Source of the DNA: Clostridia bacterium | GTDB lineage: Bacteria; Bacillota; Clostridia; Oscillospirales; CAG-272 | Assembly (NCBI GenBank): GCA_017503105.1 | Contig: JAFVTS010000001.1 | Location: forward strand, 1 to 55,476 | Direction of reading: 5' to 3' | Length of the DNA stretch: 55,476 bases | Shown: positions 1,778 through 29,916 of the stretch, one piece after another | How positions within the stretch are numbered: position 1 is the stretch's first letter | How the letters are laid out: each line of letters begins with the position of its first letter | Translations under genes and position numbers: made by a program | The notes under the pieces: model-generated | What the model was told of the DNA's origin: nothing | Database searches by the model: none | Seen by the model: the letters and a program-made list of their open reading frames with translations, nothing else

Positions 1778-4700
1778 ATGAAAATGACGAAAAACGCTTT
1801 TAAACCGTTAGTTATATCATTAACGGCGGTGCTGCTATTGGTGCTTGCGCTTCTTTGCATTGATTCGAGCGCAGAGAAAAAAGCGATAACCGAGAATGAG
1901 CCGTGTATCGAGCTGCTCTCCGAAGAAGAGGTTACGCTTATCTCTAAAGGAGAGTCTAACAGATACAAGATAATCTACGTTTCCGATGCGGAAAACGGAG
2001 ATAACGCGCTCGCCGTAGATCTCAGAAAGAAGATCTATTCCACCCTCAAAGTTAATCTTACGCTCAATTTTGACACAGACGCGCGAGAGAGTGAGCACGA
2101 GATCCTTCTCGGAAACACAAACAGAGCTATTTCCGCCGAGCTTTACGATATCGTAAGCGCTGCGGCGAACGCAGGTGAATATCTTGCGGCGGCTATTATG
2201 TATGCTGACGGCAAGCTCGCGTTCGTTGCTTCGAGCACGGAGGCTTACGAGTATTATTCGGATATGATCTTCGATTTCATATCGGAGGACGGCTTTACCG
2301 TTCCGAGTGATCTTTTCATTCTTAACACGAAGCTTTATTCCGAATATCTTGAAGATAAAAAGGCTGCCGAGGAGGCGGAAAAAGAGGCTGCAAGACAGAA
2401 GAGAATCGACGAGCTTCTTGCTATTCAAGCGGCGTTCACGCAGGAGCAGTTCGGTGAATATAAGCCTATGATCGGAGAGAACGGATATTACCAGACTAAT
2501 CCTTACGAAGATCCGTGGGTTTATCCCGTGTACGGTCAGCATCCGCGTCTTTTCATTAACGAGTGGGACCTTGATACTATTCGCGAGATACTCGCTGATC
2601 CTGAATACGCAGGGCTTGCGGAGAATTTTTGGAGCCTTGCAAACGATGACATAAACAACGGCGTCCTTGAGGATACCGTTCATAAACCGTCGGGCAAAAT
2701 TTACAGATATAACTACCATTATAACCACTGTATGGTTGCAAAAGCTCTTGCATACCTTCTGACGGGTGATGAGATTTACGCCCTTGAGGCTATCGTCGGC
2801 ATCAAGAACAGTATGCTGACGTTCTTTATGATTCCCGAGGTCGATGCCGACACGTATGCGGGTGCATCCAACATACTTTATGCACTTTCTTTCGTATACG
2901 ATTGGTGTCACGACTACCTCACCGATGCGGATAAGGCACAGATCATCGCGGGCGTTCCCAATCACATTTTCACCGAGCTTGAGTTCTCGTATCCTCCGAC
3001 GAATATGAGCTACGTCAACGGACACGGCACAGGACCTCAGTTCCTTCGTGATTTTATGGTTATGGCAAACGCTTTTGCTGACGAGTGCCCCGATTGGTGG
3101 GATCTCATCGTGGGAAGATACTTCGAGCAGTATTTCCCTGTTGGTGATGCTACGTTCGGCAAAGGTTGGGTTTCACAGGGTACTGCAAACTATGCATACA
3201 ACAAGCTTTCGACTCAGCTAAAATCCACGGTTTCGATCTACACCGCGACAGGTGAGATCTTCTTCGATTCCGAGGCGAACGAAAGCGCCTACTTCCTTAT
3301 GAGCCACACTATGCCGAGAACGGGGCTCTTCTTCCCGACGGGTGACGGTGGAAGAACTCCGGATGGATCTTACCGCGCTTGGGAATATGGTCCGTATCTT
3401 TTAGCGGCGGCACTGTACAGAGACCCTACGATGTTTGCGTACGCGAAGGATCACAGTGAAGGATTCACGATTTACAGATCCACTTCTATCACGGCGCCTT
3501 CTCCGGCACTTATTCTCGCGTTGATGTCATTATATCTTCGTGACGCTGAGGATACAGGTGAGAACCCATACGATAAAATTGATACTATTCAGTATTTCGA
3601 TTTTCCTGCAGGTCAGATGACCGCCCGCGACTCTTGGACGGATGATGCCGCCGTTGTTCTTATGAAGATCGGCAACCTCACGATGGCGAATCACGATAAC
3701 CACGATTACGGCACATTCCAGATATATTATAAAGGTCTGCTCGCGTGTAGCTCTGGTGCTTATAAGCACTACGGCGGAAATACGCATATGTATTACCTTC
3801 AGGCGACCGTTTCATCAAACGGACTTCTGGTATTTAATCCGTCACTGTCAGGTGACGATCCCGCAAAACCACAGACGTATTTTTATTCCGGCGGACAAAG
3901 AACCAAAGTAGACCCAAAAAATCTTGATCAACTGCTTAACGGTGATTGCACGATGGGAACAACTATCGGAGCATCACTCGGCTATACAAACGATGGTAAG
4001 GCGGAGTACGGATACATAGCGGGTGATCTTACTAATGCTTATGCGGAGAACACGGTCAAATACTTAAGCAGAAGTATGCTTACACTCTACACGGGCGATG
4101 CAGACTTCCCGATGCTCTTCTTTACCTACGACACTATTACGCCCGTTGATCCCGAATTTGAGAGAACGTATCTTCTCCATACCGTTAAAGAACCCGAGAT
4201 AGACGAGGCTACCCTTTCTGCTACGATAGTAGAGGGTGATGGAAAAATGCACGTGCAGTCGCTCTTCGGTGCTATGGAATTCGAGAAGATCGGCGGCCCC
4301 GGCAAGGCGTATTGGATCAACGGCAAAAACTGTGTAGACGAGTATAACGATGACGATTCTGCGGACGTAATCTGGGGCAGAATAGAGTACAGAGCCTCGG
4401 GCGAGGAAACCACGAGAATGCTCACGGCGATGTACGTTACAGACGCGGATAACGAGAAAACGCTTGATATAGACAAGTATGAATCGGATGATTTCCACGC
4501 CGCAGCGTTTAGTGACAAGATCGTTTTGTTCGCAAAGAGCGAAGAAGAACTTATTTACAAGGAATCTTCAATAAATATTGATAGGCAGGGGCTTTGTAAG
4601 TATTACGTTTCCGGCGTGGAATCGGGAACGTGGAACGTGTGTGTTGACGGCATTCGCGTGGCGCACGCTTACGCCTCGGAGGGTGAAGGCTTCATAACCT

Positions 4701-7432
4701 TTACTGCGCCTGCAGGTGAAATTGTTCTTACCCCCGGTACTGACGTTATAGGCGCAAACGGAGGAAAGATACAATATTCTACGGGCGGCGGTATTCTTCC
4801 CGCCGATGCACCCTTCTTCTATAACAACGATTACGAGGTATTTCTTCCCGAAACTCTTACCAAAGATGACGGCACGTTCTTAGGCTGGTATACATCTCCG
4901 ACCTTCGAGCCCGAAACGCTTGTGACAAAGGTGCCGCAAGGCATTAAGGGTACCTTCAGAGTCTATGCAAAGTGGCTCAACATTTACATTGACGAAAACT
5001 TCGAGGGAAGGAGCCTCTATGCTTACGAAAAGAACGCGACCATAGGACGCATAACTACGGACGGCAGCAGCAAGCCCGGCTCGATCTATGAAATAAAGAC
5101 GGATGAAAATAACGTAAGCTATCTTCATTGGACTAAAGGAACAAAGGATTCGTCTTTGGGTGTCAACGGAGGCACTAGCGGAATTCATACATCTGCCGCG
5201 GACGACCTTTGCATATCCTTTACATTGAAGCTCGGCAGAGATGCGGATAAGCCTGTTTCAAAATCTGTAATAAGACTTATCGCGAATACTGACGTAAACG
5301 GTGTGGCACTTTCGTCTACCTCTAAGTTGGAATTCTTTAATATAACAAACGACGGTGTCATCAACTGCAAGGGCTCTCAGGTTGCGACACTTGAGGCAGG
5401 GAAGATAACGACACTTCGCTTTGTAGTTGACTTCGCTAATCTCGAGATAAGAGTCCACGATGAGGATTATAACCACATAGTTACAAAGACGTTTACTCTT
5501 CCGAAGGCAAACGGTGCCACCACGGGTGCTGAATTTATGAAGTGCTTCCAGAGGAGAATCCTTCATATTTACGGCAATACCGACGCAGAGAATCCCGACA
5601 GCACGCTCAGAATATACGGTATCAGAGTCGAGGACACCGACGTTCTGACGCCTAATATCCCCGTTCTTGAAAAACCCATCGTTTATGATCTTGGCGGCGG
5701 CGTGCTTCCGTTTGATGCACCGAGATCATTCTCCGAAACAGAGTCGGTAAAGCTTCCGATACCTATGAAGGCTAATTCCCAATTCCTTGGTTGGTATACG
5801 ACACCCACCTTCAAGGCTTCCTCGAAGATAGAGGAAATACCTCCCACATCTGCTGATGAATTCAAGGTCTACGCAAAGTGGTATACTGTGATCTATGAAG
5901 AGGATTATACCGAAACAGAGGTCGATGTAACCGAAGCGAGCAAAAGCGTAAGCGGTATAGGATACAATGCTTCGGGCAAGGCGGGCGCGACGTACGTCAC
6001 GAAAACCGATGAAAAGGGCATCAAATATCTCTCGTGGATAAACGGAACGAACGACCCTGCGCTCAGCATTGTCGGAACGGGAAATAACCTGACGAATACG
6101 ACCGCGTCGGAAATATCGTTTACGTTTACATTTGCCAAAGAACCCGGCAAAGAGATGCCGAATCTCGAAACACAATTCGTTGCCGGCGTGGATGTTTTAG
6201 GTAATAAACTTTCACCGACGGGGAAGGTAAACTTGTTTGCCACGAAAGACGGTAAAGTATATCTTAACGGTAAAACCGAGTTCGCTACCGTCACGGAAGA
6301 ACCTACCGTCATTCGCATAGCGGTTGATTTCGAAAGACTTGAAATGCGTGCTTATGACGAGTCCGGAGAGGTGATTGCAAGCAATTCGTTCTCAATACCT
6401 GCAACTACTAAAGCAACTACGGGCAAGGAGCTTATGACTTGCTTCAACTCAAGAATCCTCAACGTTCGCGGAAACACTGCAAGTGATGAAAGGGCATTCC
6501 GTATCTACGGCGTAAAGATCACCGAGGGTGATGAATTCAAGGTAGTATACGAGAACTCGATAGAGTACGTAACGGACGGCGGAGAGCTTCCGACCGACGC
6601 TCCGAAGCAGTATTCGAAGACTGAAGAAACTCTTCTTCCTATCCCGACTAAGAACGGCTCTGTGTTTGCAGGCTGGTACACGTCACCAACCTTCGAGGAG
6701 TCCACTCGTATAAGTGCGATCCCCACGGACGCGAATGACGATCCGTTTATCGTCTACGCAAAATGGAATAACACCATCTTCTCCGAGGATTACACCGAAT
6801 CCGAGATAGACGTAACGGAAACGAGCAAAAACGTAAGCGGTATAGGATACAATGCTTCGGGCAAGGCGGGCGCGTCTTTCGTCACTAAAACCGATGAAAA
6901 GGGCATCAAATATCTCTCGTGGATCAACGGAACGAACGACCCTGCGATCAGCATCGTCGGAACGGGTAGTAATCTGACGAATACGACCGCGTCGGAAATA
7001 TCGTTTACGTTCGTATTTGCCAAGGAGCAGGGTAAAGAGATGCCCAATCTTGAAGCACTGTTCGTTGCGGGAATTGACGTTTCGGGCAATAAGCTTTCAC
7101 CGACTTCAAAGATATCTTTGTTCGCCACGAGAGACGGTAAAGTATATCTTAACGGTAAAACCGAGTTCGCTACCGTCACGGAAGAACCTACCGTTATTCG
7201 CATAGCGGTTGATTTTGAAAGACTTGAAATGCGCGCTTATGACGAGGCAGGCGAGGTTATTGCAAGCAATTCCTTCTCCATACCCGCGGCAACGAATGCC
7301 GCAACGGGCAAGGAGCTTATGAAGTGCTTCAACTCAAGAATTCTCAATATTCGCGGAGTTAGCGCAGTCGATGAAAGAGCGTTCCGCGTCTACGGCATAA
7401 ATATCACCGAGGGTGACGTATTCAAAAAATAA
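1778..7432 (+). CDS. Giant secreted heparinase II/III-like protein with three InlB-type repeat/beta-sandwich units
   Basis: This 1884-residue protein has a signal peptide (cleavage probably near residue 32), an N-terminal domain of about 190 residues with the motif EHEILLGNTNR, then a heparinase II/III-like catalytic part. Landmarks are HPRLF (about 255), GHGTG (415-419), SQGTANYAY (466-474) and NHDNHDYGTFQIYYKG (about 638-653). The last resembles the H-x-x-x-D-x-G-x-F signature of this polysaccharide lyase fold. By family analogy the His of GHGTG and a Tyr of SQGTANYAY are candidates for catalysis; that is inference. The C-terminal half has three units, each an InlB/Listeria-Bacteroides repeat ending in GWYT...YAKW (about 992-1064, 1298-1368, 1594-1664) followed by a beta-sandwich of about 220 residues. 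No LPXTG, SLH or dockerin is visible, so surface retention is unexplained. ATG 1778 follows a GAAAGGG site. The substrate is unknown; a uronate-containing polysaccharide is likely. Confidence 0.82.
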   Translation: MKMTKNAFKPLVISLTAVLLLVLALLCIDSSAEKKAITENEPCIELLSEEEVTLISKGESNRYKIIYVSDAENGDNALAVDLRKKIYSTLKVNLTLNFDTDARESEHEILLGNTNRAISAELYDIVSAAANAGEYLAAAIMYADGKLAFVASSTEAYEYYSDMIFDFISEDGFTVPSDLFILNTKLYSEYLEDKKAAEEAEKEAARQKRIDELLAIQAAFTQEQFGEYKPMIGENGYYQTNPYEDPWVYPVYGQHPRLFINEWDLDTIREILADPEYAGLAENFWSLANDDINNGVLEDTVHKPSGKIYRYNYHYNHCMVAKALAYLLTGDEIYALEAIVGIKNSMLTFFMIPEVDADTYAGASNILYALSFVYDWCHDYLTDADKAQIIAGVPNHIFTELEFSYPPTNMSYVNGHGTGPQFLRDFMVMANAFADECPDWWDLIVGRYFEQYFPVGDATFGKGWVSQGTANYAYNKLSTQLKSTVSIYTATGEIFFDSEANESAYFLMSHTMPRTGLFFPTGDGGRTPDGSYRAWEYGPYLLAAALYRDPTMFAYAKDHSEGFTIYRSTSITAPSPALILALMSLYLRDAEDTGENPYDKIDTIQYFDFPAGQMTARDSWTDDAAVVLMKIGNLTMANHDNHDYGTFQIYYKGLLACSSGAYKHYGGNTHMYYLQATVSSNGLLVFNPSLSGDDPAKPQTYFYSGGQRTKVDPKNLDQLLNGDCTMGTTIGASLGYTNDGKAEYGYIAGDLTNAYAENTVKYLSRSMLTLYTGDADFPMLFFTYDTITPVDPEFERTYLLHTVKEPEIDEATLSATIVEGDGKMHVQSLFGAMEFEKIGGPGKAYWINGKNCVDEYNDDDSADVIWGRIEYRASGEETTRMLTAMYVTDADNEKTLDIDKYESDDFHAAAFSDKIVLFAKSEEELIYKESSINIDRQGLCKYYVSGVESGTWNVCVDGIRVAHAYASEGEGFITFTAPAGEIVLTPGTDVIGANGGKIQYSTGGGILPADAPFFYNNDYEVFLPETLTKDDGTFLGWYTSPTFEPETLVTKVPQGIKGTFRVYAKWLNIYIDENFEGRSLYAYEKNATIGRITTDGSSKPGSIYEIKTDENNVSYLHWTKGTKDSSLGVNGGTSGIHTSAADDLCISFTLKLGRDADKPVSKSVIRLIANTDVNGVALSSTSKLEFFNITNDGVINCKGSQVATLEAGKITTLRFVVDFANLEIRVHDEDYNHIVTKTFTLPKANGATTGAEFMKCFQRRILHIYGNTDAENPDSTLRIYGIRVEDTDVLTPNIPVLEKPIVYDLGGGVLPFDAPRSFSETESVKLPIPMKANSQFLGWYTTPTFKASSKIEEIPPTSADEFKVYAKWYTVIYEEDYTETEVDVTEASKSVSGIGYNASGKAGATYVTKTDEKGIKYLSWINGTNDPALSIVGTGNNLTNTTASEISFTFTFAKEPGKEMPNLETQFVAGVDVLGNKLSPTGKVNLFATKDGKVYLNGKTEFATVTEEPTVIRIAVDFERLEMRAYDESGEVIASNSFSIPATTKATTGKELMTCFNSRILNVRGNTASDERAFRIYGVKITEGDEFKVVYENSIEYVTDGGELPTDAPKQYSKTEETLLPIPTKNGSVFAGWYTSPTFEESTRISAIPTDANDDPFIVYAKWNNTIFSEDYTESEIDVTETSKNVSGIGYNASGKAGASFVTKTDEKGIKYLSWINGTNDPAISIVGTGSNLTNTTASEISFTFVFAKEQGKEMPNLEALFVAGIDVSGNKLSPTSKISLFATRDGKVYLNGKTEFATVTEEPTVIRIAVDFERLEMRAYDEAGEVIASNSFSIPAATNAATGKELMKCFNSRILNIRGVSAVDERAFRVYGINITEGDVFKK
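5887..7432 (+). repeat. Recent in-frame tandem duplication of a repeat/beta-sandwich unit (period 885 bases)
   Basis: Bases 5887-6547 and 6772-7432 are near-identical at an exact offset of 885 bases. Long runs of perfect identity include about 60 bases covering the segment that encodes KVYLNGKTEFATVTEEPT. Identity extends to synonymous positions, which points to a recent duplication or gene conversion. The first beta-sandwich of the same protein (about 4980-5650) is far more diverged. Confidence 0.9.
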
Positions 7433-7447
7433 AATCTCAGTTTAAAG

Positions 7448-7478
7448 CACGGACTTCAGAGTGGAGTCCGTGTTTTTT
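7448..7478 (+). terminator. Rho-independent terminator of the first giant gene
   Basis: CACGGACT (7448-7455) pairs with AGTCCGTG (7465-7472), followed by TTTTTT. The two giant genes are therefore separate transcription units. Confidence 0.88.
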
Positions 7479-7546
7479 GTATCAAGAGGTGTTTTTTCGT
7501 TATATGCGCTGTGCTTGGGCGTTTTTTAAACGTAAATAACGGTTTT

Positions 7547-7660
7547 GTGAAGAATTTCAGATGATAATTTTTTTGTAACTTTACGATTTATGTAATTCTT
7601 GCAAAAACGTTTACGATTTTATATTGCATAATAGATAAAAATATGATAGAATTATATTGC
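7547..7660 (+). promoter_or_regulatory. Promoter region of the second giant lyase-like gene; shared operator block
   Basis: Bases 7547-7627 align without gaps to 1630-1710, with 44 identical bases at 7577-7620. The TTTACGAT direct repeats are at 7580-7587 and 7610-7617. A weak -10 (TAGAAT at about 7647-7652, or TTATAT just after) occupies the same relative place as TATAAT in the first copy. A long untranslated leader of about 65 bases follows. Confidence 0.68.
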
Positions 7661-7725
7661 AAATTTATATTACTGTCATAATTATTCTCATAATGCTATG
7701 AGTTTGTAAGAAAGGGATGTTTGAA

Positions 7726-10700
7726 ATGATTAAAGTCTTGAGATGGTGCGGGACGGTATTTTTTGCCGTACTCGCCGCTGCTTTGATGATCGCTATATTG
7801 CCCGAGAGCGGGAGTAGCGTGTCAGCAGATGACGGAAAGCTTGTTGCAGAGCTTTGCTCCGAGGAAAGGGTCGATATAGTCGTCGGCTCCGAGAGCGATT
7901 ACACCATAGTATTTTCCACGGATTCTAAGACTCCCGGTAACGAAATTGCCGCAAAGGTCAGATCGACAGCGTCATCACTTCTCGGAGCGAGGCTGACGAT
8001 GAAGGCAGATAATATGGCAAAGGAAACGGAGCACGAGATCATCGTCGGTTACGTTGACCGTGATATTATTACGGAGCTTCACGCAATCTTTGATTCGTAC
8101 GACTCGTCCGATATCCTCGTTTGGGGCTGTATGTATAAGGACGGAAAGCTTGCGTATTCCGCAAATTCTCCCGAGGCGCTTGACTACGGTAAGTACGCGC
8201 TCCTTTCTCTTATAACCGAGGACGGCTTTTCGGTTGACTCGGATTATTTATCAATAGGCTCTATCACTCGAGCTGAGTACGAGCAGTATCTTAAAGATAA
8301 GGCTGAAGCTGAAGAGGCGGAAAGAAGAGAGAAGAAGTTCGCGGAGCTTAACGCTATGCAAAACGCCTTCACTCAGGATCAGTTCGGCGAATATAAGTCG
8401 ATAATCGGTGAGGACGGATACTACGAGAAGAGTCCTTACGCATCGCCTTGGTTCTATCCCGTTTCGGGTGAGCACCCGCGTCTTATAGTAAATAAAGGCG
8501 ATTTGAAGACCGTCAAGGCTCTTCTTGAAGACCCCGAATACGCGGATCTTGCGGAAAACTTCTGGAATATGGCAAACGCGTCTTGCGAGTACGGTATATT
8601 TCCACCCAAGCTCGGAGCGTCGGGCGAGTATTACAGATTTAATGCGAACTATCTCGGTATTATGACTACGAAAGCCTTCGCTTACCTTCTGACGGGCGAT
8701 GAGCTTTACGCCCTTGAGGCAATAGTAAGTATAAAGAACGCTATGCTTACCTATAAGTATACCGCTGATATTCATTCGGACACATATCACGGCGGCTCGG
8801 AGGTCCTCTTCGCGGCATCACTGATATACGACTGGTGCTACGATTATATAACCGAAGAGGATACCTATCATTTCCTCGCGGGTATCGTCAATCTTTGTAT
8901 ATCAACGATGGAGATAGACTATCCTCCGTCAAATATGGGCTACGTTTCGGGTCACGGAACGGGACCGCAGTTCCTTCGCGATATGATGGTAATGGCTACC
9001 GCTTTCTCGGATGAAGCTCCTGACTGGTGGGAGTTCATCGCAGGAAGATACTTCCAATACTATCTCCCCGTCGGCAACCTTGCCTACGGCTCGGGTTGGA
9101 TATCGCAGGGAACGGCAAACTACGCTTACAACAAAATGAACGTTATGCTCTGGGCGGCGGTTTGCGTCTACGGTGCTACGGGTGAGATCGTGCTTAACGA
9201 AGGCGCTAACGATTCGATGTACTTCCTCCTCAGCCATACGATGCCCGAAACGGGGAACTATTTCCAGACTGGTGACGGCGGACGTACCGCAAACGGTGCC
9301 TCGCGCAGCTGGGAGTACACGGCGTTCTTCTTAGCGGCGGCGCTTTACAGAGACCCGATAGTTTTCGCAAACGCTAAGTATTTGACGGAGAATTTCTCCC
9401 AATACAACACGAATTCCGTTTCCGTTCTTACTCCTGCAATGCAGCTTGGATTTATTTCCGTTTATATGCGTGACGGTGATGACACGGGCGATTGGCGCTA
9501 TCAGGATATTCCGCTTATTCAGTACTGCGAGCCTCCTGCGGCGCAAATGACCGCGCGTAATTCCTGGACGGACCCTGACGCTGCTGCGGTGTTTATGAGA
9601 ATAGGCACAAAGACGATGGCAAACCACGACTGCTTCGACCACGGCACCTTCCAGATATATTATAAGGGACTTCTTGCCTGCGCGTCGGGCTCTTACCACG
9701 ATTACGGCGGATATATTCACAAGTACTATCTTCAGGCAACGATCTCGCACAACGGTCTTCTTGTCTTTAACCCCGCTTATGCTGACGAGGAGCCCGAATA
9801 CGGAACGCTTCCCGACGGAAGCGTCGACAAGATGACGGTGCTCAACCACAAGCGCTATTTCTACTCGGGAAGCCAGGAAAGCCTCCGCGAGGCGGGTAGC
9901 TTTGAGGCGTGGGTCGGCGGAGATTACGATATGGCGGAGATGCTCGGAGTTTCCTCGGGGTATAATTCCGACGGTTCCGCTGATTACGGTTATATCGCGG
10001 GCGATATAACCAAAGCGTATGCCATAGACACAGTCGAGTTTATAAGCAGAAGAATGCTCACGGTATACACGGGCGACACCGAGTTCCCGATGCTCTTCTT
10101 TACTTATGACAACATTACCGCGATGGATGAGAGCTTTGCGAAGACGTATCTTCTTCACACCGTAAAAGAGCCCGAGGTGGATACGGAAAACTTCGTTGCT
10201 ACCGTTACTCAGGACAGAGGAAAGATGTACGTCCACTCTCTCTTCGGCGCGGATGAGATCCGTAAGATAGGCGGAGAGGGCTACGCTTATTGGATAAACG
10301 GCAAGAACTGCTACGATTCGGGCAAGCAAAATGACAGCGCAAATACCATCTGGGGCAGAATAGAGTTTACCGCCGCAGGCGAAAAGAATACCAACTTCTT
10401 GACGGCTATGTACGTCACGGATGCGGAAAACACGAATACGCTTCCCACCGAAAAGTTTGAATCGGACACGGTTCAAGCCGCTGTAATAAAGAATAAGGTT
10501 GCCGTCTTTGTAAAGTCGGACGCTGCAGCGTTCAAGGAATTCTCCTTCACCACCGAAGGAGTAGGACTTTACGATTACTATATCTCGGGTGTTGAGAACG
10601 GCACTTGGAACGTCATAGTAGACGGCATTTCAACAGCTTACGCTTATGCGTCCGAGGGCGAGGGCTTCATAACCTTTACCGCTCCTTCGGGTAACGTGCG

Positions 10701-19603: not shown

Positions 19604-22600
19604 TTACACGAAGATATTTCCTTCTGCTATCTTGATATTGTAGAATCTGATGGCTGATTCGGGTACTACCGCTGCCGCGGTGTTAGCCTTTACGTAAAGA
19701 AGATACTTGTTTATCAGGCTTTTCCATTCAAGAGTGCTTGAAGCTCCGGATTTCGTCGGAGCTGAGAACGTACCGCTCGTAACGATCTCAAGCGCGTCGC
19801 CGTAAATTATGAACTCTCCCTTTTTAAAATCAAGCGTGAGTCTGAGGGTGAATATTGTGCCGTCACTGATGTTTCCGATCGTAACGTTATTGATGGCACA
19901 CCTTATTTCACCGTCGGTGTAGCTCTTTATCAGCTGCAGCGAACCCGTGGTGCTTTGTCCGGTTGTATTGACCGAGGATTCAAGGTCGAAGTTCATCAAC
20001 GGAAGTATGGGCGTGTTTCCATCGCGAGAGAATGAGATCTCGTAGCTTATGACATTCTCCTTCATTTCCGCAACGGTACCGGTAGAGGCGTTTAAAATGG
20101 AGAAGTTGGGGTCGCTCTCTCCCTTGACCCAACGGAGGAATCTGCGACCGTTTGTGTCAGTATCCGTCTTGAAGGAGGCGCCGAGCTTTCCGCGCGTTAC
20201 GTAAGTAATATTGTTATGCACGAGATTTGACGCGACGTCCGCGGTGGCGTCTATATCATCGTCAAAGCTTTCGTCGATAAAAACTGTGAGCCATTTAGCA
20301 TAAAGCGTGAATTTGCCTTCCGCATCGACGGGTATCTCTTTTATAGCTTCTCCCGAGAAGTCCTCACTTGCGTACCATCCGCCGAAAATCGCGTTTTGTT
20401 TGCTCGGCGTGGGTAGGGTTGTAGGCTCATCCTTTGAGTATTCGTCGGGATAAGTCTCGGGGAGTGAGCCGCCTGCGAGATTGTACTTGATAGCGTTATA
20501 CTTTTCGGGAACGTCTTTGACAAACAGGTTCCCCTCTGCGATCTTGATCCCGTAAATGCGAAGCGTAGCATCGGCGGGCACACTGCTGAGATTAGCGCGC
20601 CAATATATCATATATTTTTGAATGAGTGTCTTCCATTCGGCGGTAGTTTCGGCACCGGATTTTTCAGGAGCGGAGAAGCTTACGGAATGGATCTCGCTAC
20701 CGCTTTCACGATAGAATGAAATTGTTCCGTTTTGGAAATCTATGACCATTCTCACCGTCAGGATCGAACCGTCCGCAATTGATCCTATCACGGTAGAATC
20801 AACTCCGCACGCTACGCTGCCATCGGAATAGATTTTAAGTAGATTCAGCGTGCCCCAAGCGGAATTTCCGCTCATGTCGACGTTTGATTCGAGAATGATT
20901 TCCGTGCTGGCAAGAATGGGGGCATCCGCGTCGCGGCTTATTTTTATTTCATAGCTTACCGAATCCGCTTGCATTGCGGCAAAGCTGTATCCGCTTGGAT
21001 TTGTTATGGAAAGACCAGGGTCGCTCGTTCCCTTGGTCCACAAGAGGTAGGAAGCTCCGTTTTCATCTACGCGCGATGCGAAGGATGCCTCGCTTTTGCC
21101 CTTAACGGTCAGATTCAGTCCGTTAAACGAAGGGTTGGACGAGGTGCTGTGGTCGTGGTTTATCTCTGTCTTGGAGAAGTCCTCATTGAAAAGCACGTTA
21201 TTCCATTTTGCATATACGGCAAACGGTCCTTCACTGCTTGTCGCAACCGATGTAACTTTGGTCGACTCCTCGAAATCCATCGACGTATACCAACCTATAA
21301 ATATAGCGTTTTGCTTCGTGGGAATGGGGAGAACGGTGGGGGAGTCTTTCGAGTATTCGTACGGAGCGCCTTCGGGAAGAATGCCACCGTTAGTAAAATA
21401 TTCAATATCTCTTTCTCCGGCTTCCTTTTCAAAGAAATTGCCCTCTCCGATCTTTATACCGTAGAAACGAAGTGCCGCATCGTCAGATACGCTGCCCGAA
21501 TTTGCTCTTACGTAAATCATATAACGGGTTATGAGGGATTTCCATTCCAGCGTAGAGGAAGCCTCCGACTTTTCGGGTGCTGTAAAGCTCTTTGAATGTA
21601 TAGCCCTTCCAAGCTCGTTATAAAACGTGAGAGTACCGCTTTCAAAGTTTATCACCATTCTTACCGTAAGAACGGAGCCGTCGCTTATGTTACCTATCGT
21701 GACAGAGTCCGCCGCGCATTTTATATCGCCATCGGACGTAATGCAGAGAAGCTTTAAAGTGCCCCACGCGGATTCTCCCGCCGTGTTTTTGTCGGATTCA
21801 AGTATTATTTCCGACGTAGCGAGTATTGGTGCGTCTGCATCTCTTGAAATCGAAATTTCATAGCTCGCGCATTTTTCGGTCATACCTGCGAAGCTGTAAG
21901 CACCGGGGCTGTTAACGGAGAAGCTCGGATCGCTTGAGCCCTTTACCCAACGCAAGAAGCGTCTGCCGCTTTCGTCCTCGTCGGTTTCAAAAATCGCGCC
22001 CGCTTTTCCCGCGGCGACGTAAGACAAACCGTTGCTCTTGAGCGCGGAGACGGTTTCGCTGTTAATATGAAAATCGGTTTCGCTATAATCCTCGTTTACG
22101 AAAATGTTATTCCACTTTGCGTAAACCTTGAAGATGCCGTTTGCATCGGTCGGTACCTCGGTGATCTTTGAAGCCTTGTCGAAATTCGGGTCGGTAAACC
22201 AACCGATAAAGGTGGCGTTTTTCTTGAACGGGACGGGGAGGGGAGTAGGAACGTCCTTTGAGTATTCTCTCGGAGCATCCTGCGAAAGCTTACCGCCGGA
22301 TAAATCGTAATCAATGGATCCTTCGGAAAACGTACGCTTGAAGCGATCTCCCTCCGTAATTGTTATATCGTATATTCTGACAGATTTCGGAAGCCCGTCC
22401 TTATTTGAATCGCATCTCCAATAAACCACGCTGCTTTGAATAAGCAATTTCCATTCAATGCCCGTGGTGGCACCGGATGCTTTGGGAACTGTGAATTTTT
22501 CACAAGAATACACGTCGTTGTTTTCATCGTAATAAACGAGCAATTCGTTTTTGAAATCGATCGTGAACTTCACGGTAGCGGCATTGTCGGCGGTAGCAGT

Positions 22601-25600
22601 CGCCAGCTCTGCTCCATTGACACCGCTTTTTATGACGAGATCGCCTTTAGAGTCCTTTTCAAACGTGAGCAACGGGAGAGTACCCCATACCCGGTCTTTT
22701 CCGTTTATATCCTTGTTGGATTCAAGAACGAGGGAATTGAAATTCGGGAACTCACCGTCCGCGTCGCGTCCGAACGTAAAGGAATAGCTTACCGTATCCG
22801 AATGCATATTTGCGAAATTCTGCGCAGAGTTCGTGATCTGTAGACGGGGGTCATCCTTAATCTGTGTCCACTCTATATAATCTTTTCCGTTTTCGTCACG
22901 CATCGCATATGCCGTCGAAAGCTCGGGGGTAAACGTTATTTTTGAGATTCCCGTATTTTTGAAAAGACCGTTGTTAAAATCGAGCAGAGTGAAGGATACA
23001 AGCCATTTTGCGTAAACTCTGAAGGTTCCTGTCGTACCTGCGGGAATGGAGTAGATCCGCGTTCTTTCATCGTAATTGGGACTTGTAAACCATCCGACAA
23101 ACACGTTGCCGTTAGGATGCGTCATATCCGTAGGAAGAAGCGTCTCTTCCTCGTTGTTATAGACTATCGGAGCACCGTCGGGCAACTTTCCGCCGCCAAG
23201 GTTGTAGTGGATCTTTCCGCCGTTCATTCCTATAACGTCAGGACCGGGCGTGATTTCGATTTTTCCGGGGGGCGCATAGAAATTAAGGATTCCTTCACCT
23301 TCCGCAACGTAAGTATGAGCTACTCTGATGCCGTCGACGTAGATCTGCCACGTGCCGGATTCCAGTCCGGCAATATAGTATTCCGTCAGTCCGGGATCGG
23401 ATCTTGAAAACTCAAAGCTCTTGTACCACAGCTTGTCACTTTTTATAAACGCCGCGGAAACGGCTCCGATCTCTGCACCCTGTAAAAATTCGTTTTCGTA
23501 TTTTTCTACGTTAAGCGTATTCTTATTGTCACTGTCCTTTACGTACATAGCAACGAGCATATCGTCGTGAACGTTACCGCTCGCGGTGAGTTCGGCTCTG
23601 CCCCATATTATATCGCTCCTGTCGTTATTTGACGTTGCGTTAAGCAGATTTTTGCCCGAAAGAGAACCGTCGGTATTGTAGTAATTCTTACCGTTGATCC
23701 AATATGCAAAGCCCTCGCCGCCTATTTTTTCGACGGTTTCCCATCCGAGAAGAGAGTGCATAACGAGCGTGCCTTCACCTTCCGTTACCGTCACGGTCAT
23801 TGCATCCTTGTCAAGCTCGGGCTCCTTTGCCGTATGTAATAAGAATTGCTTTCTGAAATCGGGGTTGTTTCCGGCGTTGGTTATAGAATCGTGTACGAAG
23901 AAATACATAGGGAAATCTTCATCTCCCGTAAAGATAGAGAGCATACGTCTTCCAACGTAATCTACCGTTTCGGGGTTGTAAGACGTTGTGATATCTCCGG
24001 CTATATATGCGAATTTGACGGTACCGTCATAGTTATATTTGGAAGATACGGAAATCAGATCCCCCATATCATAATCTCCGCCTTGCCACGCGTCGATAGT
24101 GCCTGCCTCACGTCTGTATTGCTGGCTTCCCGAGTAGTAATATCGGCTGCTGTTGGCTAATCTGCCGTCGACGTAAAGAGGCTCGTCATCCGCCAGTGTC
24201 GGATCGAAAATAAGCAGCCCGTTGTACGCGACGGTTTGCTGCGCGTAATAAATATGCTCATCGGAGCCGTAGGTGGGATAAGAGCCGGAGGGACCTGTGA
24301 GCAAGCCCTTATAATAAATTTGGAATGTGCCGTGATCGTAGTTATCGTGGTTTGCCATGGTAAGCGTGCCTATTCTCATCATTATGGAAACGGCATCGCT
24401 GTCCCAAGAGCTTCTTGCCGTGATCTGTGCGGCGGGCTCGGCAAAGCTCTGTATCAACTCAAAGTTATCGTAATCAATGTTCTCAAGGAAGTGAAGTGGC
24501 ATATAAGCAATTAAAGTCAAAAGCTTTGCCCAGGTAACGTCGTTTGAAAAATCTGATGCGCACGAGGAAAAATTCTCAGATTTCGTTTTTAGATAGCTTG
24601 AAAGCCCCATATTTTTGGTAAGTGCGCTTATCATATAAATGACCCAAGGATAGGTCTCGGAAACGCCGGTGTTGAATTTCACACCGTCGCCGCTTGCGAA
24701 ATATCTTCCCGATGGCATTTCATGAGACAGAATGTAATAAGCTGCCGTTTCTATGTCGTCAATGTTATATGGGAAAATACCGTTTGATATGTAGAGCATA
24801 TATCCCGGGACGAGGGAGTCGTAAAGCTTGCCGGGACCGTAACAAGCAGTACCCTGAGATACCCAGCCGCCCTTTGTTTGTTCAAGAACTACGGGAACGT
24901 ATTCCTCGTAGTATCTTCCGCCCACGAATTCCCACCAATCGGGCATCTCGTCGTAAAAGGCGAGCGCGAGCGACATATAATTTACGAAGAAGAGCGGCCC
25001 CGTTCCGTGACCGGAAACCGCAGACATATTTGCGGGCGGGAACTGCCACTCGGTAAAGTGAGGGAGCATAAGATGGCAAACGCCGCCGATGATCTGGTTT
25101 TTGTCTTCCTCGCTCAAAAGGTCGTAGCACCAATCATAAACGCGCGAAAGGGTAGCGGTGACGTGTCTTGCACCCGTTGCCTGCGAATCGTTAGGGGATA
25201 CGTTTCGGCTGTATTTGAGCGTAAGCATCATTTGCTTTATGCCGATTATAGCTTCGTAGCCGTAGATCTCATCACCCGTAATAAGATAAGCAAGTGCTTT
25301 ATTTTCAATGTATGAGTTTATAGCTCCGTTGTATCGGTAAAGCTCTCCGTTTTTCCATTCGTCGTAATATCCGTCTATTATTTTGTATCCGTTATGGTAA
25401 ACGGCGTCAGCTTCTTTCCAGAACTCGTGCGCTATTTTTAAATATTCGGGATCGTTCAGTATATTCCGAATATCCACGATGCGGTCACCTGTGAGGAAGA
25501 GTCTTGGGTGTTGCCCCTTTGTGGGATAGGATTCGGGCGGAAGATAAGGGGATTTGCCCATAGATTTAGGGTCGCCGCCAAACATATCCTGCGTGTATGA

Positions 25601-26239
25601 GTCGTTGCGCGCAATGAGATCGTTCAGGCTTTTTTCGCGCTCAAGCCGCTCTTGCTCCTTTAGCTCCTCCTCGTATTCGGAAATAGCTTTTGTTTTAATT
25701 ACGTACAAATTTTCGGGCACACTGAGCGTACCGTCCTTGGAGATCAAAGAAAGAAAGTCGTTTTTGCCATATTCGAAAGCGGTATCGGAGTTGGCAAGAT
25801 ATGCAAGATGCCCGTTCTTGAAAGCGTATGCCCATATGAGTTGACTTCCGTCATCAGTAAATTCAATCACGGAAAGAAGTTCCTTAGACAACGCTCGGTT
25901 CGTTTTTCCTATGAGTATTTCGTACTCTGTCGCCTTTCCGGCACTGTCGGGGATCGAACGCACGCGGTAACCGCCTTCGGAAAAAATATTCGAAAGCTCG
26001 GAAGAGAGTACTTGGTCCGCAAAGCTCGAATCGGACGAATAAACGAGCCTGTATTCGGGAGCGCTGTCACCGATAATGCTAATGCTTGATGACGTTTCGG
26101 ACAAAAGAATCGCCTTATCCGCGTTCGTTTTAATTTCATCAGGGGCCGTTCTTTGAGCAAATAAAAGACAACAAACGGTAATAAACAGTATTAGCGAAAA
26201 GAGTGAACACCTTAACTTTTTTGAATTCAATTTTTTCAT
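19604..26239 (-). CDS. Giant secreted heparinase II/III-like protein with four repeat units
   Basis: At 2211 residues this is the largest gene here. It starts with a basic stretch and a hydrophobic signal segment (about 13-29). An N-terminal domain with TEYEILIGKTNR follows, then the catalytic part: HPRLFLTGDR, GHGTG (His about 411), SQGTACYGPGK and NHDNYDHGTFQIYYKG. The C-terminal half carries four InlB-type repeats, each ending GW[FY][TA]...YAKW, alternating with four beta-sandwich domains that end in RxY[GND]I[KT]I-x-EG. The protein stops right after the last domain with no anchor. Its catalytic part is closer to the 1117-residue partner (SQGTACYGPGK in both) than to the two plus-strand paralogs (SQGTANYAYNK). 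It is divergent from an AraC regulator. Its -10 box lacks a good -35 box, as expected for an activated promoter. The substrate is not deducible; an acidic polysaccharide is likely. Confidence 0.82.
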   Translation of the reverse strand: MKKLNSKKLRCSLFSLILFITVCCLLFAQRTAPDEIKTNADKAILLSETSSSISIIGDSAPEYRLVYSSDSSFADQVLSSELSNIFSEGGYRVRSIPDSAGKATEYEILIGKTNRALSKELLSVIEFTDDGSQLIWAYAFKNGHLAYLANSDTAFEYGKNDFLSLISKDGTLSVPENLYVIKTKAISEYEEELKEQERLEREKSLNDLIARNDSYTQDMFGGDPKSMGKSPYLPPESYPTKGQHPRLFLTGDRIVDIRNILNDPEYLKIAHEFWKEADAVYHNGYKIIDGYYDEWKNGELYRYNGAINSYIENKALAYLITGDEIYGYEAIIGIKQMMLTLKYSRNVSPNDSQATGARHVTATLSRVYDWCYDLLSEEDKNQIIGGVCHLMLPHFTEWQFPPANMSAVSGHGTGPLFFVNYMSLALAFYDEMPDWWEFVGGRYYEEYVPVVLEQTKGGWVSQGTACYGPGKLYDSLVPGYMLYISNGIFPYNIDDIETAAYYILSHEMPSGRYFASGDGVKFNTGVSETYPWVIYMISALTKNMGLSSYLKTKSENFSSCASDFSNDVTWAKLLTLIAYMPLHFLENIDYDNFELIQSFAEPAAQITARSSWDSDAVSIMMRIGTLTMANHDNYDHGTFQIYYKGLLTGPSGSYPTYGSDEHIYYAQQTVAYNGLLIFDPTLADDEPLYVDGRLANSSRYYYSGSQQYRREAGTIDAWQGGDYDMGDLISVSSKYNYDGTVKFAYIAGDITTSYNPETVDYVGRRMLSIFTGDEDFPMYFFVHDSITNAGNNPDFRKQFLLHTAKEPELDKDAMTVTVTEGEGTLVMHSLLGWETVEKIGGEGFAYWINGKNYYNTDGSLSGKNLLNATSNNDRSDIIWGRAELTASGNVHDDMLVAMYVKDSDNKNTLNVEKYENEFLQGAEIGAVSAAFIKSDKLWYKSFEFSRSDPGLTEYYIAGLESGTWQIYVDGIRVAHTYVAEGEGILNFYAPPGKIEITPGPDVIGMNGGKIHYNLGGGKLPDGAPIVYNNEEETLLPTDMTHPNGNVFVGWFTSPNYDERTRIYSIPAGTTGTFRVYAKWLVSFTLLDFNNGLFKNTGISKITFTPELSTAYAMRDENGKDYIEWTQIKDDPRLQITNSAQNFANMHSDTVSYSFTFGRDADGEFPNFNSLVLESNKDINGKDRVWGTLPLLTFEKDSKGDLVIKSGVNGAELATATADNAATVKFTIDFKNELLVYYDENNDVYSCEKFTVPKASGATTGIEWKLLIQSSVVYWRCDSNKDGLPKSVRIYDITITEGDRFKRTFSEGSIDYDLSGGKLSQDAPREYSKDVPTPLPVPFKKNATFIGWFTDPNFDKASKITEVPTDANGIFKVYAKWNNIFVNEDYSETDFHINSETVSALKSNGLSYVAAGKAGAIFETDEDESGRRFLRWVKGSSDPSFSVNSPGAYSFAGMTEKCASYEISISRDADAPILATSEIILESDKNTAGESAWGTLKLLCITSDGDIKCAADSVTIGNISDGSVLTVRMVINFESGTLTFYNELGRAIHSKSFTAPEKSEASSTLEWKSLITRYMIYVRANSGSVSDDAALRFYGIKIGEGNFFEKEAGERDIEYFTNGGILPEGAPYEYSKDSPTVLPIPTKQNAIFIGWYTSMDFEESTKVTSVATSSEGPFAVYAKWNNVLFNEDFSKTEINHDHSTSSNPSFNGLNLTVKGKSEASFASRVDENGASYLLWTKGTSDPGLSITNPSGYSFAAMQADSVSYEIKISRDADAPILASTEIILESNVDMSGNSAWGTLNLLKIYSDGSVACGVDSTVIGSIADGSILTVRMVIDFQNGTISFYRESGSEIHSVSFSAPEKSGAETTAEWKTLIQKYMIYWRANLSSVPADATLRIYGIKIAEGNLFVKDVPEKYNAIKYNLAGGSLPETYPDEYSKDEPTTLPTPSKQNAIFGGWYASEDFSGEAIKEIPVDAEGKFTLYAKWLTVFIDESFDDDIDATADVASNLVHNNITYVTRGKLGASFKTDTDTNGRRFLRWVKGESDPNFSILNASTGTVAEMKENVISYEISFSRDGNTPILPLMNFDLESSVNTTGQSTTGSLQLIKSYTDGEIRCAINNVTIGNISDGTIFTLRLTLDFKKGEFIIYGDALEIVTSGTFSAPTKSGASSTLEWKSLINKYLLYVKANTAAAVVPESAIRFYNIKIAEGNIFV

Positions 26240-26276
26240 TATGCGGATCTCCTGTTGCGTGTTTTCTTCAATATAA

Positions 26277-26335
26277 ATTATAATGGATTTTAGCGTGGAT
26301 TTCTATTGACAAAGCATATCATTATATGGTAAAAT
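26277..26335. promoter_or_regulatory. Divergent promoters between the 2211-residue lyase-like gene and the AraC regulator
   Basis: On the plus strand TTGACA (26306-26311), 18 bases and TAAAAT (26330-26335) form a good promoter for the regulator. On the minus strand TATAAT (complement of 26277-26282) lacks a matching -35 box. The lyase promoter therefore probably depends on an activator, and the adjacent AraC protein is the obvious candidate. Confidence 0.7.
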
Positions 26336-26363
26336 CATACTAATCGGCACGGAGGTGAAACGT

Positions 26364-27170
26364 ATGCAGGAGTTGTTAGTTCAAAAAAATGAGCTTTTAA
26401 ATTTTAACGTCATAAGCATAGGAATAGAAGAGGATTATAAGCTCGCACACTGGGGACGCGGTCGCAGAACGTTTTTGGTTCTGCAGTACGTCCTTTTGGG
26501 CAAAGGCTATTTTAACGGGAAAGAGGTTAGAGCGGGGCAGGGGTTCGTTGTAGAACCGGGCGAGATTAACGAATACCATTCATCCGAGGATGAGCCATGG
26601 ACGTATTTTTTTATAAGCCTTTCCGGCGAAAACGTTACTGAGGTCGTAAAAAGATATTTGGGTCAAACGGAAAACGGGATTTTCAATTACGATTTTAAGG
26701 CAAAGCTTATGGACATAGTGACGGAAACGATAAGAAGCAATTTCAGCGGTCGAGGCAACGGAAAAGCGTTTATATCATCTTCATTCGCACTGTCGTGCTT
26801 CTGGCGCATTATGTCGTACCATGAAGAGAATCTCGACAACGATATAAATCATTACGTCAGAGATGCTAAAAATTATATGCGCTTGCATTTTCATCAGGCG
26901 TTAAGTATTTCCGAGATAGCGAAAGCGTTGAATATCAGCGACAGATATCTCTATAACCTTTTCATCAAGCACTTAGGGGCTTCCCCAAAGCGTTATTTGA
27001 ACGGAATAAGAGTTGCCCGTGCTGAAAAATATCTTTTGAGCACTGAGGCTTCGATCACCGAAATTGCAGTTTCCGTCGGAGTTCCCGATGTTCTTGCGTT
27101 TTCAAGATTCTTTAAAAGATATACGGGAGTGTCCCCTACCGAATACCGCAAGAGGAGAAAAAATCAGTAA
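26364..27170 (+). CDS. AraC-family transcriptional regulator
   Basis: About 268 residues. The N-terminal half is a cupin-like sensing domain (YVLLGKGYFNGKEV... GFVVEPGE), as in AraC_binding. The C-terminal 100 residues hold two helix-turn-helix motifs: SISEIAKALNISDRYLYNLF and SITEIAVSVGVPDVLAFSRFF, followed by the family signature YTGVSPTEYRKRR. Such proteins usually bind a sugar and activate neighbouring catabolic genes. ATG 26364 is preferred over the GTG at 26355 because GGAGG (26351-26355) is 8 bases before it. It is divergent from the 2211-residue gene and upstream of the 854-residue protein, and may also act on the TTTACGAT repeats of the two other giant genes. That last point is inference. 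Confidence 0.9.
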   Translation: MQELLVQKNELLNFNVISIGIEEDYKLAHWGRGRRTFLVLQYVLLGKGYFNGKEVRAGQGFVVEPGEINEYHSSEDEPWTYFFISLSGENVTEVVKRYLGQTENGIFNYDFKAKLMDIVTETIRSNFSGRGNGKAFISSSFALSCFWRIMSYHEENLDNDINHYVRDAKNYMRLHFHQALSISEIAKALNISDRYLYNLFIKHLGASPKRYLNGIRVARAEKYLLSTEASITEIAVSVGVPDVLAFSRFFKRYTGVSPTEYRKRRKNQ

Positions 27171-27196
27171 TTCTTCCGCGAGAAGCAAAATATTAA

Positions 27197-27240
27197 GCAA
27201 AAACGGTACTGTTAAAAAAATGTATATAGTGTGTTTTTGC
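27197..27240. promoter_or_regulatory. Inverted repeat GCAAAAAC/GTTTTTGC upstream of the 854-residue protein gene
   Basis: GCAAAAAC (27197-27204) is mirrored by GTTTTTGC (27233-27240). The same half-site word occurs in the promoters of the two plus-strand giant genes (1684-1691 and 7601-7608). No T-tract follows directly, so it is less likely a terminator for the AraC gene and could be an operator. A TATAAT-like box lies further on in the AT-rich leader (about 27285-27292). Confidence 0.5.
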
Positions 27241-27351
27241 CATATTTTAATATGTTTTATGCATTTAAATTCTTCATTTTTTATTATATAATGATGATGT
27301 TAAGCGCTGTAAGTGTGTTAACAAAAAATCAAAAGAAAAAGGAGAATTTTT

Positions 27352-29916
27352 ATGAAAAAGCAAAGAATTTTTGCAGTTATCCTCGTGGTAGTAATGCTCG
27401 TTTGTGCTTTGCCGCTCTCGCTTTTCGCAGAAGCGGAAGGCGAACAGGCTACCGCGGCGCAGGGAGAAAGCACGCTGTCGCTCTCCGGGGTCAGTGTTTC
27501 GCTCGGAAGCAAAATCGCACTTAATTTATTTGTAGATGCGGATGATGCCGTCATTGAGGATACCACCGCAAAGATTTCCGTTGATGCAAAGACGAGTGAG
27601 ATCAAGCTCTCCGATGCGGATAAGACGGAAAGCGGCGTGAAGATATCCGTTCTTCTGTCCTCTACTCAGCTTTCGAAGGACGTTAAGGTTTCTTTTATTG
27701 ATAAGGAAGGAAACGTTCTTGATTTTGCGACATCCGAGGCAGGGTCTGTCACCGAGTATTCTACGAGCGTAATGCAGTACTCGAAAAGAATAGTGAATGA
27801 CGCAAGCTTTGACGCAAAGGCAAAGAATGCCGTAAAAGCTATGATGGCGTTCGGTGCATATGCGGAAAAGTATTTTAATGGTACGGAGCCTTCCGCGTCC
27901 GAGGTCCTTACAGCGGATGAGCTTGCAAACGTCGTGGCAGCCGATTTCGGTACTGTTATAAAGAGCGATGGAACGGTTGAAACGCTCATTGACGAAAGCC
28001 TTAATGAAACTATCGTGGCAACGGGCGATACGAGCAATCTCGGAAAAGTATGTCTCGTGCTTGACAGCTACAATAAAATAAGAATAGACGTTTCTTCCGA
28101 TGCGAAGCCCGAGGTTTCATCCTCTAATGCGACGGTCGAGGTATTTTCGAAGGGGAATAACTTGTACTCCGTTGACATCACCAAGATTCAGGCAAGAGAT
28201 CTCAATACCGTCTATACCGTTAAGATCGGCGATGCTACAGTAAGTCTTAGTCTTCTTGCTGTTGCAAAGCTCGTGGCTGATGCCCCGTATGCTTACGGAG
28301 AGGATTTTGTAAATCTTGCGAAGGCTCTCTACAATTATTATCACTACACTCATTCTTATGAAACGCCAAGATATTTCGTTTACGAGGACTTTTCCAAGAG
28401 CGTAATTGATCTGGATGATACCTCGGAGCAGGTCGTTATCAACAACATTACTTACAGCATTAAAGATCAGACGGGCGTGAGCCTGAAGACTGTCACGGAC
28501 GGTGGCGAGAGCTATCTTCTCGTGACCAAATCGGGCAGCGGTGACCCAATATTCAGAGTACAAAATCCTACCACCGGCACTATCGCCGATATGAAGTCAA
28601 ATCAGATCAGCTACGAGTTCTCGTTCTCTGCCGACGGAACAAATAAATTCCTCGGTATCGACAACATTTACCTCTCTTCATCCAAGGGCGATCCTAAGCT
28701 GCTTAAGATATATAGTGATAAAGACGTCGTATACTACGGCACCGAGGCATACAGCTCCTCTAACAGCCTCGGATTCGTATCGTCGGACATATTTACCGTA
28801 AGATTGGTAATTGACTTTGAAAGCGAGCTTGTCAAGTTCTATAATGATGGCGGCGAGCTGATTATGGAACGTGCTCTTGCCAAAAAGTCGGCAGCTAACG
28901 GTCTTGCGCTTAAGGCTGCCTTGACGGAAAATCTCTTCTCTCTCAGGGCTGATGCCGACAGCTTATCGGGCTCCATCCGTATCTACGGTCTTAAGATCGC
29001 GGAAGGCAATATTTTTGAAAACTCCAACAGCATTGTATATGACCTTGATGGCGGTACTCTTCCCGAGAAGGCACCTATGACCTATTCTCAGGAAGAAGAA
29101 ACATTCCTTCCGACTCCCACTCATCCCACTAATGATTTTGTCGGTTGGTTTACGAGCGCAAGCTTCGATCCCGCAACCAAAATAACCTCCATTTCTCCGC
29201 AAACGCGCGGAAAAGTAACCGTTTACGCGAAGTGGATCAAGTATTTGATCAATGAAGATTTCTCCGGTTTGAATATTGATATGGATGAAAATTCCGAAAA
29301 TGTTACCGCAAATAACATACTCTTCGCATTCAGCGGTAAAACGGGAGCGTCATTAAAAACGGGCACAGACGCGGCAACGGGTAAGAGCTACGTTGTTTTG
29401 ACAAGAACTAACAACGACGGTCGTCCCGTACTGAGGATCGATCCTGGCTCGTCCGTCCAATCCATCGCAGACGTGTCGTCAAATCAGATCAGCTATGAAA
29501 TTTCGTTCGGTGCTGACGGAACGAACTCGCTCGTGGGCATTGACGAGTTGTATATCGGATCCTCGGGTGGCGGAGCCTACAATCTTTTAAAAACTTGGGG
29601 CAGCGACGGTTCTGTTGCATACTACGGAAATAAGTCTTCCGGCGATGTTGTTGCACACATCGACAAAACGGGCGGCGCTATCACCACTGTCAGAATGGTG
29701 ATCGACTTTGAAAACGAGAATATCAAATTCTACGCTGCCGACGGCGAAGTAATAAAAGAGTGGAGCCTTCCCGTCCCGTCGCTTGTTGAATCCGGTCTTG
29801 ATTGGAAGGCGACTATGACAAACGAGCTCTTGTACATTCGAATCAATTCCCCTAATTGGTTCGGTTCCGTTCGCATCTACGGTATCAAGATCGCGGAAGG
29901 AAACATCTTCGGATAA
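27352..29916 (+). CDS. Secreted non-catalytic protein with the lyase-type repeat/beta-sandwich modules
   Basis: The 854-residue protein has a clear signal peptide (MKKQRIFAVILVVVMLVCAL... cut after LFA). Residues about 35-350 form a region often seen in Clostridial surface proteins: a SLGSKIALNLFVD strand motif, a helical YSTSVMQYSKRI... AFGAYAEKYF segment and a short beta domain. It then has a beta-sandwich domain, one InlB-type repeat (GGTLP... GWFT... YAKW) and a second beta-sandwich ending RIYGIKIAEGNIF. No heparinase motifs are present. The C-terminal units match those of the giant enzymes, so it may bind the same polysaccharide or mediate cell attachment while the enzymes cut. An AAGGAG site precedes ATG 27352. 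It is followed 12 bases later by a 53-residue small gene. Confidence 0.8.
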   Translation: MKKQRIFAVILVVVMLVCALPLSLFAEAEGEQATAAQGESTLSLSGVSVSLGSKIALNLFVDADDAVIEDTTAKISVDAKTSEIKLSDADKTESGVKISVLLSSTQLSKDVKVSFIDKEGNVLDFATSEAGSVTEYSTSVMQYSKRIVNDASFDAKAKNAVKAMMAFGAYAEKYFNGTEPSASEVLTADELANVVAADFGTVIKSDGTVETLIDESLNETIVATGDTSNLGKVCLVLDSYNKIRIDVSSDAKPEVSSSNATVEVFSKGNNLYSVDITKIQARDLNTVYTVKIGDATVSLSLLAVAKLVADAPYAYGEDFVNLAKALYNYYHYTHSYETPRYFVYEDFSKSVIDLDDTSEQVVINNITYSIKDQTGVSLKTVTDGGESYLLVTKSGSGDPIFRVQNPTTGTIADMKSNQISYEFSFSADGTNKFLGIDNIYLSSSKGDPKLLKIYSDKDVVYYGTEAYSSSNSLGFVSSDIFTVRLVIDFESELVKFYNDGGELIMERALAKKSAANGLALKAALTENLFSLRADADSLSGSIRIYGLKIAEGNIFENSNSIVYDLDGGTLPEKAPMTYSQEEETFLPTPTHPTNDFVGWFTSASFDPATKITSISPQTRGKVTVYAKWIKYLINEDFSGLNIDMDENSENVTANNILFAFSGKTGASLKTGTDAATGKSYVVLTRTNNDGRPVLRIDPGSSVQSIADVSSNQISYEISFGADGTNSLVGIDELYIGSSGGGAYNLLKTWGSDGSVAYYGNKSSGDVVAHIDKTGGAITTVRMVIDFENENIKFYAADGEVIKEWSLPVPSLVESGLDWKATMTNELLYIRINSPNWFGSVRIYGIKIAEGNIFG

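Follow-up and report, generated by a model that had tools for sequence, protein, structure and literature searches.

Heparinase II (HepII) of Pedobacter heparinus, a member of polysaccharide lyase family 21 (PL21), is tabulated in PMC12088678 with His202, Tyr257 and His406 as catalytic residues and Glu205 as the neutraliser. In the mutant data of PMC10656541, activity of PCHepII, a heparinase II-type enzyme, was abolished when the equivalents of His202 and His406 were mutated, and was too low for exact calculation when the Tyr257 equivalent was mutated. The characterised PL21 glycosaminoglycan lyases are reported in PMC11848413 to act only on heparin and heparan sulfate. Here we describe a locus in a stretch of 55,476 nucleotides from a Clostridia bacterium (contig JAFVTS010000001.1 of assembly GCA_017503105.1, positions 1 to 55,476; hereafter the window). 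Four of its genes encode PL21-type proteins that keep the three catalytic residues of HepII and have lost other active-site residues, and a fifth encodes a non-catalytic protein with the same C-terminal units. The results support a lineage-specific, active-site-remodelled PL21-type clade with arrays of lectin-like modules. We favour, with some reserve, a reading in which these are lyases of the PL21 fold whose substrate pocket has been remodelled for an unsulfated glucuronate polymer, not heparan sulfate. The genes, with protein lengths in amino acids (aa), are as follows.

P0001, 1778-7432, plus strand: 1884 aa; signal-like N-terminus, N-terminal domain, PL21-type catalytic domain and three units, each a List_Bact_rpt repeat plus a lectin-like module
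P0001 PL21-type catalytic domain, 2534..4723, plus strand: residues 253-982
P0001 array, 4745..7423, plus strand: the three repeat + lectin-like units, the second being the one folded
P0002, 7717-13413, plus strand: 1898 aa; P0001-type architecture with three units
P0003, 16236-19589, minus strand: 1117 aa; PL21-type domain and one unit, lacking a signal-like N-terminus and the N-terminal domain
P0004, 19604-26239, minus strand: 2211 aa; P0001-type architecture with four units
P0005, 27352-29916, plus strand: 854 aa; N-terminal domain, then module, repeat, module

Relationship to heparinase II and other lyases

The first-pass annotation of this sequence had noticed four giant paralogs of one modular architecture, with a non-catalytic partner, and had suggested that they might form an undescribed lyase family with binding modules of its own. 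The locus is as it described. The GHGTG, SQGTA and NHD-x-x-D-x-GTFQIYYKG motifs are present in all four catalytic proteins; SQGTANYAYNK occurs in both plus-strand genes and SQGTACYGPGK in both minus-strand genes, the latter pair separated by 14 bp. The architecture is shared, the binding modules are lectin-like, and P0005, which lies outside the 24 PL21 frames of the source genome, carries two copies of the unit. The word giant suits three of the four proteins but not P0003.

The interpretation fared less well, and is only partly supported. The four proteins matched the NCBIfam model NF045571 at E values of 2.7e-66 to 2.9e-88 (224-297 bits, below the 600-bit cut-off of this HepB equivalog model), and their best characterised relative is heparinase II (2FUQ, 2FUT, 3E7J, 3E80). 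P0001 aligns with residues 22-736 of the 747 of HepII, at about 24% identity, so that the motif spacing, which the annotation had taken to resemble known lyase families (PL12, PL15, PL17, PL21) only loosely, is that of PL21. A high-confidence model of the P0001 catalytic domain has the expected fold, an alpha/alpha toroid plus a beta-sandwich, with heparinase II as the closest structure; the superposition on that enzyme, made by a structure aligner, covers the fold. The sequences of all four proteins and the predicted fold of P0001 support a PL21-type assignment. An undescribed family is ruled out by the strong, nearly full-length PL21 match, an outcome that the annotation itself had named as a refutation, while distinctness survives as a real divergence of the active site from the characterised PL21 enzymes. 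Relative to HepII, the window clade (defined below) has replaced Glu205, Arg261, His408 and Asp425, together with Arg148, Gly151 and Gly190, and the window lyases have added long module arrays.

PL35, PL12, PL15 and PL17 gave no full-length match to the catalytic-region profile. Matches to PL35 and PL15 were partial (E 1.5e-16 at best for PL35, and 0.55 with P0001; E 2.4e-13 for PL15), PL17 reached E 0.008, and PL12 gave no row at E 0.01 or better; the PL12, PL15 and PL17 structures also had lower Z scores than heparinase II with the P0001 model. The PL35 glycosaminoglycan lyases (8KHV, 8KHW, 9O3Q) share the fold, and their H-x-H-x-D motif can be aligned, but the sequence match is partial and PL35 is reported to keep and need its metal. 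Human dermatan sulfate epimerase 1 (6HZN), described as an epimerase with a Mn site, was absent from the profile matches at E 0.01.

The active site and the window clade

Residues are numbered as in HepII. The 24 PL21 proteins of the source genome were compared with an outside set of 97 open reading frames, drawn from the best 80 of 421 stretches. Nine of 121 domain matches were dropped because the catalytic region was not covered, leaving 88 outside proteins; near-duplicates from related metagenome-assembled genomes (MAGs) are among them, which means that the rows cannot be treated as independent. Positions 410 and 412 were fixed in the scan patterns, and 205, 408 and 425 were left free. PMC12088678 places His403, Asp405, Asp421 and His457 of PL35 close to Mn. 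HepII residues 406, 408 and 410 line up with the H-x-H-x-D motif of PL35, and from these two observations the HepII ligands were assigned by homology. Along with His408, we presume 425 and 451 to be metal ligands of HepII, on the grounds of alignment and spacing; 426 and 464 were rejected for this role, as they do not match the sequence.

His202, Tyr257 and His406 are kept in 24/24 own and 88/88 outside proteins. The surrounding residues behave differently. Glu205 is kept in 6 of the 24 own proteins (the others having 15 Gly, 2 Asn and 1 Ser) versus 77 of 88 outside, His408 in 9 versus 86, and an Asp or Glu at 425 in 9 versus 84. All three presumed metal ligands (408, 425, 451) are present in 8/24 own proteins, C25:34143-40583 being one, versus 80/88 outside. 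In the window the neutralising Glu205 is Gly in all four proteins, and none of the three presumed ligands is kept in P0001 (N408, S425, S451, with K261 and Y411), P0003 (N408, A425, Y451) or P0004 (N408, P425, Y451); P0002 keeps one (C408, A425, H451). In six outside proteins Gly205 occurs beside an intact metal site. A Poribacteria PL21 relative (L128) has the reverse, Glu205 with Cys408, Ser425 and Lys451, probably an independent loss of the presumed ligands.

A quick tree of 113 rows was built with six trait columns left out, using SH-aLRT (Shimodaira-Hasegawa-like approximate likelihood ratio test) in place of bootstrap support and an assumed HepII root. The window proteins fall in a clade of 16 rows, 15 from the source genome plus locus L061, with SH-aLRT 100. 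Its sister is a group of three own proteins (82), the two together forming a clade of 19 (99), and a single clade unites L061 with the full set of 24 own rows (93). In the sister trio, residue 205 is Asn or Ser and residue 261 is Lys; its presumed metal ligands are complete in two proteins, and one ligand is kept in the third (C15). The remaining six own proteins are canonical. The trio combines changes at 205 and 261 with a mostly complete metal site, and the tree suggests that the active site changed stepwise. Within the expansion of 24 genes, a first step would have altered Glu205 and Arg261 (E205N/S, R261K), and a second would have brought E205G with loss of His408 and Asp425, so that the structural metal of the relatives is probably absent from the window clade, given the ligands assigned by homology.

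Nine of 98 columns that are at least 90% conserved elsewhere were lost in the clade, including 148, 151, 190, 242, 261, 408 and 425. General decay was rejected as the cause, as the other 89 columns did not reach the loss criterion. His202, Tyr257, His406, Asn405 and Tyr436 are invariant in 16/16 clade rows, and position 408, at the 82nd percentile of column entropy, belongs to the more variable ones. Strict conservation of the residues presumed to transfer protons argues for a catalytically active clade.

Either the structural role of the metal has been replaced in the clade, with which the predicted fold is compatible, or the site has been rebuilt around His411, or the clade is partly inactive. 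Several observations on relatives weigh against activity without metal. PCHepII was fully inhibited by ethylenediaminetetraacetic acid in the inhibition data of PMC10656541, the PL35 metal-ligand mutants covered in PMC12088678 lost all or most activity, and DS-epi1 metal-ligand mutants are described as inactive or not expressed; since these relatives need metal, part of the clade could by analogy be inactive. A rebuilt site, in which a D407-x-x-D410-H411 cluster and His451 hold a shifted metal, could be combined with the favoured reading of a remodelled, active lyase. Asp410 is found in 15/16 clade rows, the new His411 in 14/16 and His451 in 11/16, so some members may have such a site; P0001, with Y411 and S451, is not an obvious candidate, and H451 is also lost in P0003, P0004 and two other rows. 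We consider a rebuilt site unlikely.

Substrate and rival explanations

On the favoured reading, the window's four proteins would be polysaccharide lyases of the heparinase II fold, secreted except perhaps for P0003. They would break a chain that contains uronic acid by beta-elimination, and Tyr257, with His202 or His406, would move the protons. The List_Bact_rpt and lectin-like units would keep enzyme and substrate together, and P0005 would serve as a glycan-binding partner lacking an enzyme. The substrate is likely an unsulfated glucuronate-containing polysaccharide, of plant gum or pectin type or a bacterial exopolysaccharide, not heparan sulfate. After import, GH88 hydrolases would open the products, which KduI and a KduD-like dehydrogenase would then process.

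Genes suited to such a pathway are present in the source genome. It encodes UxaC and three GH88-like proteins (GH, glycoside hydrolase), one of them below the Pfam cut-off; against the Protein Data Bank, two matched the unsaturated glucuronyl hydrolase 1VD5 (E 2e-58 and 3e-58). Two GH88-like genes lie on contig C14 beside KduI (440 bits, cut-off 250), in a one-strand cluster (L140:1594-8894) that also holds a GH2 gene and a gluconate-5-dehydrogenase/KduD-like gene, and which is likely a catabolic operon for lyase products. The KduD-like gene has gluconate 5-dehydrogenase as its best NCBIfam model and falls below the KduD cut-offs; the GH2 is nearest to the beta-glucuronidase LacZ4, below the beta-glucuronidase cut-off. 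Twenty neighbours, hand-picked from the frames around the lyase genes, were scanned, and the fetched stretches contained GH78, GH95, GH29, GH127, GH2, GH20C and GH65, as well as another GH78-like protein and a PL8 whose closest match is xanthan lyase. Taken together, this gene set fits beta-elimination of a glucuronate-rich heteropolysaccharide, which is more likely to be unsulfated.

The source genome gave no match to the sulfatase family PF00884, whereas 10 of 14 control genomes matched in the same scan. This is a weak argument for an unsulfated substrate, as a sulfatase could be encoded in sequence that the assembly lacks or belong to a family other than PF00884. Among 12 genus mates tried, six had PF00884 and six did not. 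The PL21-rich mates G024 and G021 have such sulfatases, the PL21-rich G015 (71% complete) has none, and several PL21-free mates have none either, so the absence of sulfatases does not go hand in hand with PL21 expansion. GH20C-type hexosaminidases lie about 10 kb from lyases on contig C32 and, like the fucosidases of the fetched stretches, would also suit host glycans; the GH88 and KduI genes are not beside window genes. All of these points count against an unsulfated plant or microbial substrate, and the GH20C and genus-mate results in particular slightly lowered our confidence in the favoured reading. They could instead be read as signs of ordinary heparan sulfate or heparin lyases that graze on host glycosaminoglycans, their residue changes being neutral drift, as the kinship to heparinase II and the known range of PL21 enzymes might lead one to expect. 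We think this quite improbable, given a source genome in which no PF00884 sulfatase was found, losses that fall on active-site and metal columns, and GH78, GH127, GH2 and a xanthan-lyase-like PL8 in the lyase stretches. Still less probable is a lyase scaffold that has come to serve C5-epimerisation, or glycan binding without catalysis, given five invariant active-site residues beside a variable position 408 and a genome equipped with GH88, KduI and KduD-like genes for unsaturated products.

More tentatively, and with doubts that outweigh our confidence, a gut Clostridia lineage may have turned heparinase II into lyases that work without metal on an unsulfated glucuronate polymer of plant or microbial origin, with two dozen giant multi-lectin enzymes in one genome. 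If so, intact proton-transfer residues beside a dismantled metal site would show the metal to be dispensable in the heparinase II fold, and the lineage would combine a new specificity with independence from the metal that the studied relatives require. PL21 would be extended to another substrate class, beyond the heparin and heparan sulfate reported for the characterised enzymes covered in PMC11848413, and a gut specialist would be devoting 5.6% of its genome to one lyase family. Annotating such genes as heparinase calls for caution.

Expansion, modules and neighbouring genes

The source genome (2,603,637 bp in 44 contigs, 96.5% complete, 1.36% contamination) gave 26 PL21 matches, representing 24 proteins on 11 contigs and 144,756 bp, or 5.56% of the genome. 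A binning artefact was rejected as the source of this copy number, since the genes are spread over 11 contigs, some with ordinary metabolic genes (aconitase on C32), and contamination is low. By a simple hydropathy rule, 21/24 proteins start with a signal-like hydrophobic stretch; the others are C1:97418, cut by a contig end, and C30:106407 and P0003, both uncut. Five further PF07940 matches above cut-off (C24, C21, C15; frames of 596-661 aa) lie outside the 24 and are other heparinase II/III-like proteins.

In the genus (69 genomes including the source, at most 15 candidates scored per genome), 20 genomes matched a profile of the window's four proteins. Among the matches listed, nine mates had 9 to 24 matching pieces, which are pieces and not genes, and no match from any genus mate exceeded 537 bits, versus 810-1406 bits for the own proteins (15 scored out of 24 candidates). 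These mates (G021, G024, G424, G449, G450, G451, G456, G457 and G015) represent a second PL21 expansion, with shorter frames. In the order (394 genomes including the source, at most two candidates scored per genome), 14 genomes had any match, and first-look candidates numbered 25 in the source genome versus at most five in the others listed. Of 20 motifs in 37 loci fetched from whole genomes, 19 had His408, the lone Asn (L163) being P0004 itself. Most of the named relatives are MAGs of Clostridia, and several of these come from the digestive tract of herbivores (yak rumen, roe deer cecum, sheep colon, goat colon, horse feces). Within the Creative Commons-licensed literature searched, no earlier description of such a PL21 clade or expansion was found, though some gut metagenome papers mention PL21.

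Modules were counted in the window and 18 fetched stretches, chosen around lyase genes and module matches. Most secreted members carry two to six repeat + lectin-like units, and P0003 one. The nearest known relatives of the lectin-like module are concanavalin/LamG-like, namely a domain of BT_1020 (5MQR) and the CBM40 of Vibrio cholerae sialidase (2W68). The N-terminal domain of P0005 recurs in four other large proteins of the source genome. Two large BspA-type leucine-rich-repeat proteins have a near-identical C-terminal ending; C1:93898-97035 adjoins lyase genes, and C25:51444-55247 shares a contig with the C25 lyase cluster. In genus mates, where at most 40 candidates per genome were scored, a giant frame of 3888 aa (G421:C3:11705-15262) had about a dozen List_Bact_rpt matches; its listed matches included no complete lectin-like module.

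Two further genes of the window may be connected with the lyases, the first, judged by its position, as a possible regulator of the locus and the second as a possible accessory enzyme.

AraC-family regulator, 26355..27170, plus strand: between the minus-strand lyase pair and P0005
Alpha/beta hydrolase, 48275..49261, minus strand: glucuronyl-esterase match of 44.5 bits, above the Pfam cut-off

At 46272-48038 long open frames occur on both strands (588 aa on the minus strand, 236 and 332 aa on the plus strand), and the 588-aa frame matched nothing in Pfam or NCBIfam at E 0.001. Other window genes include GH2, GH5-like and GDSL genes.
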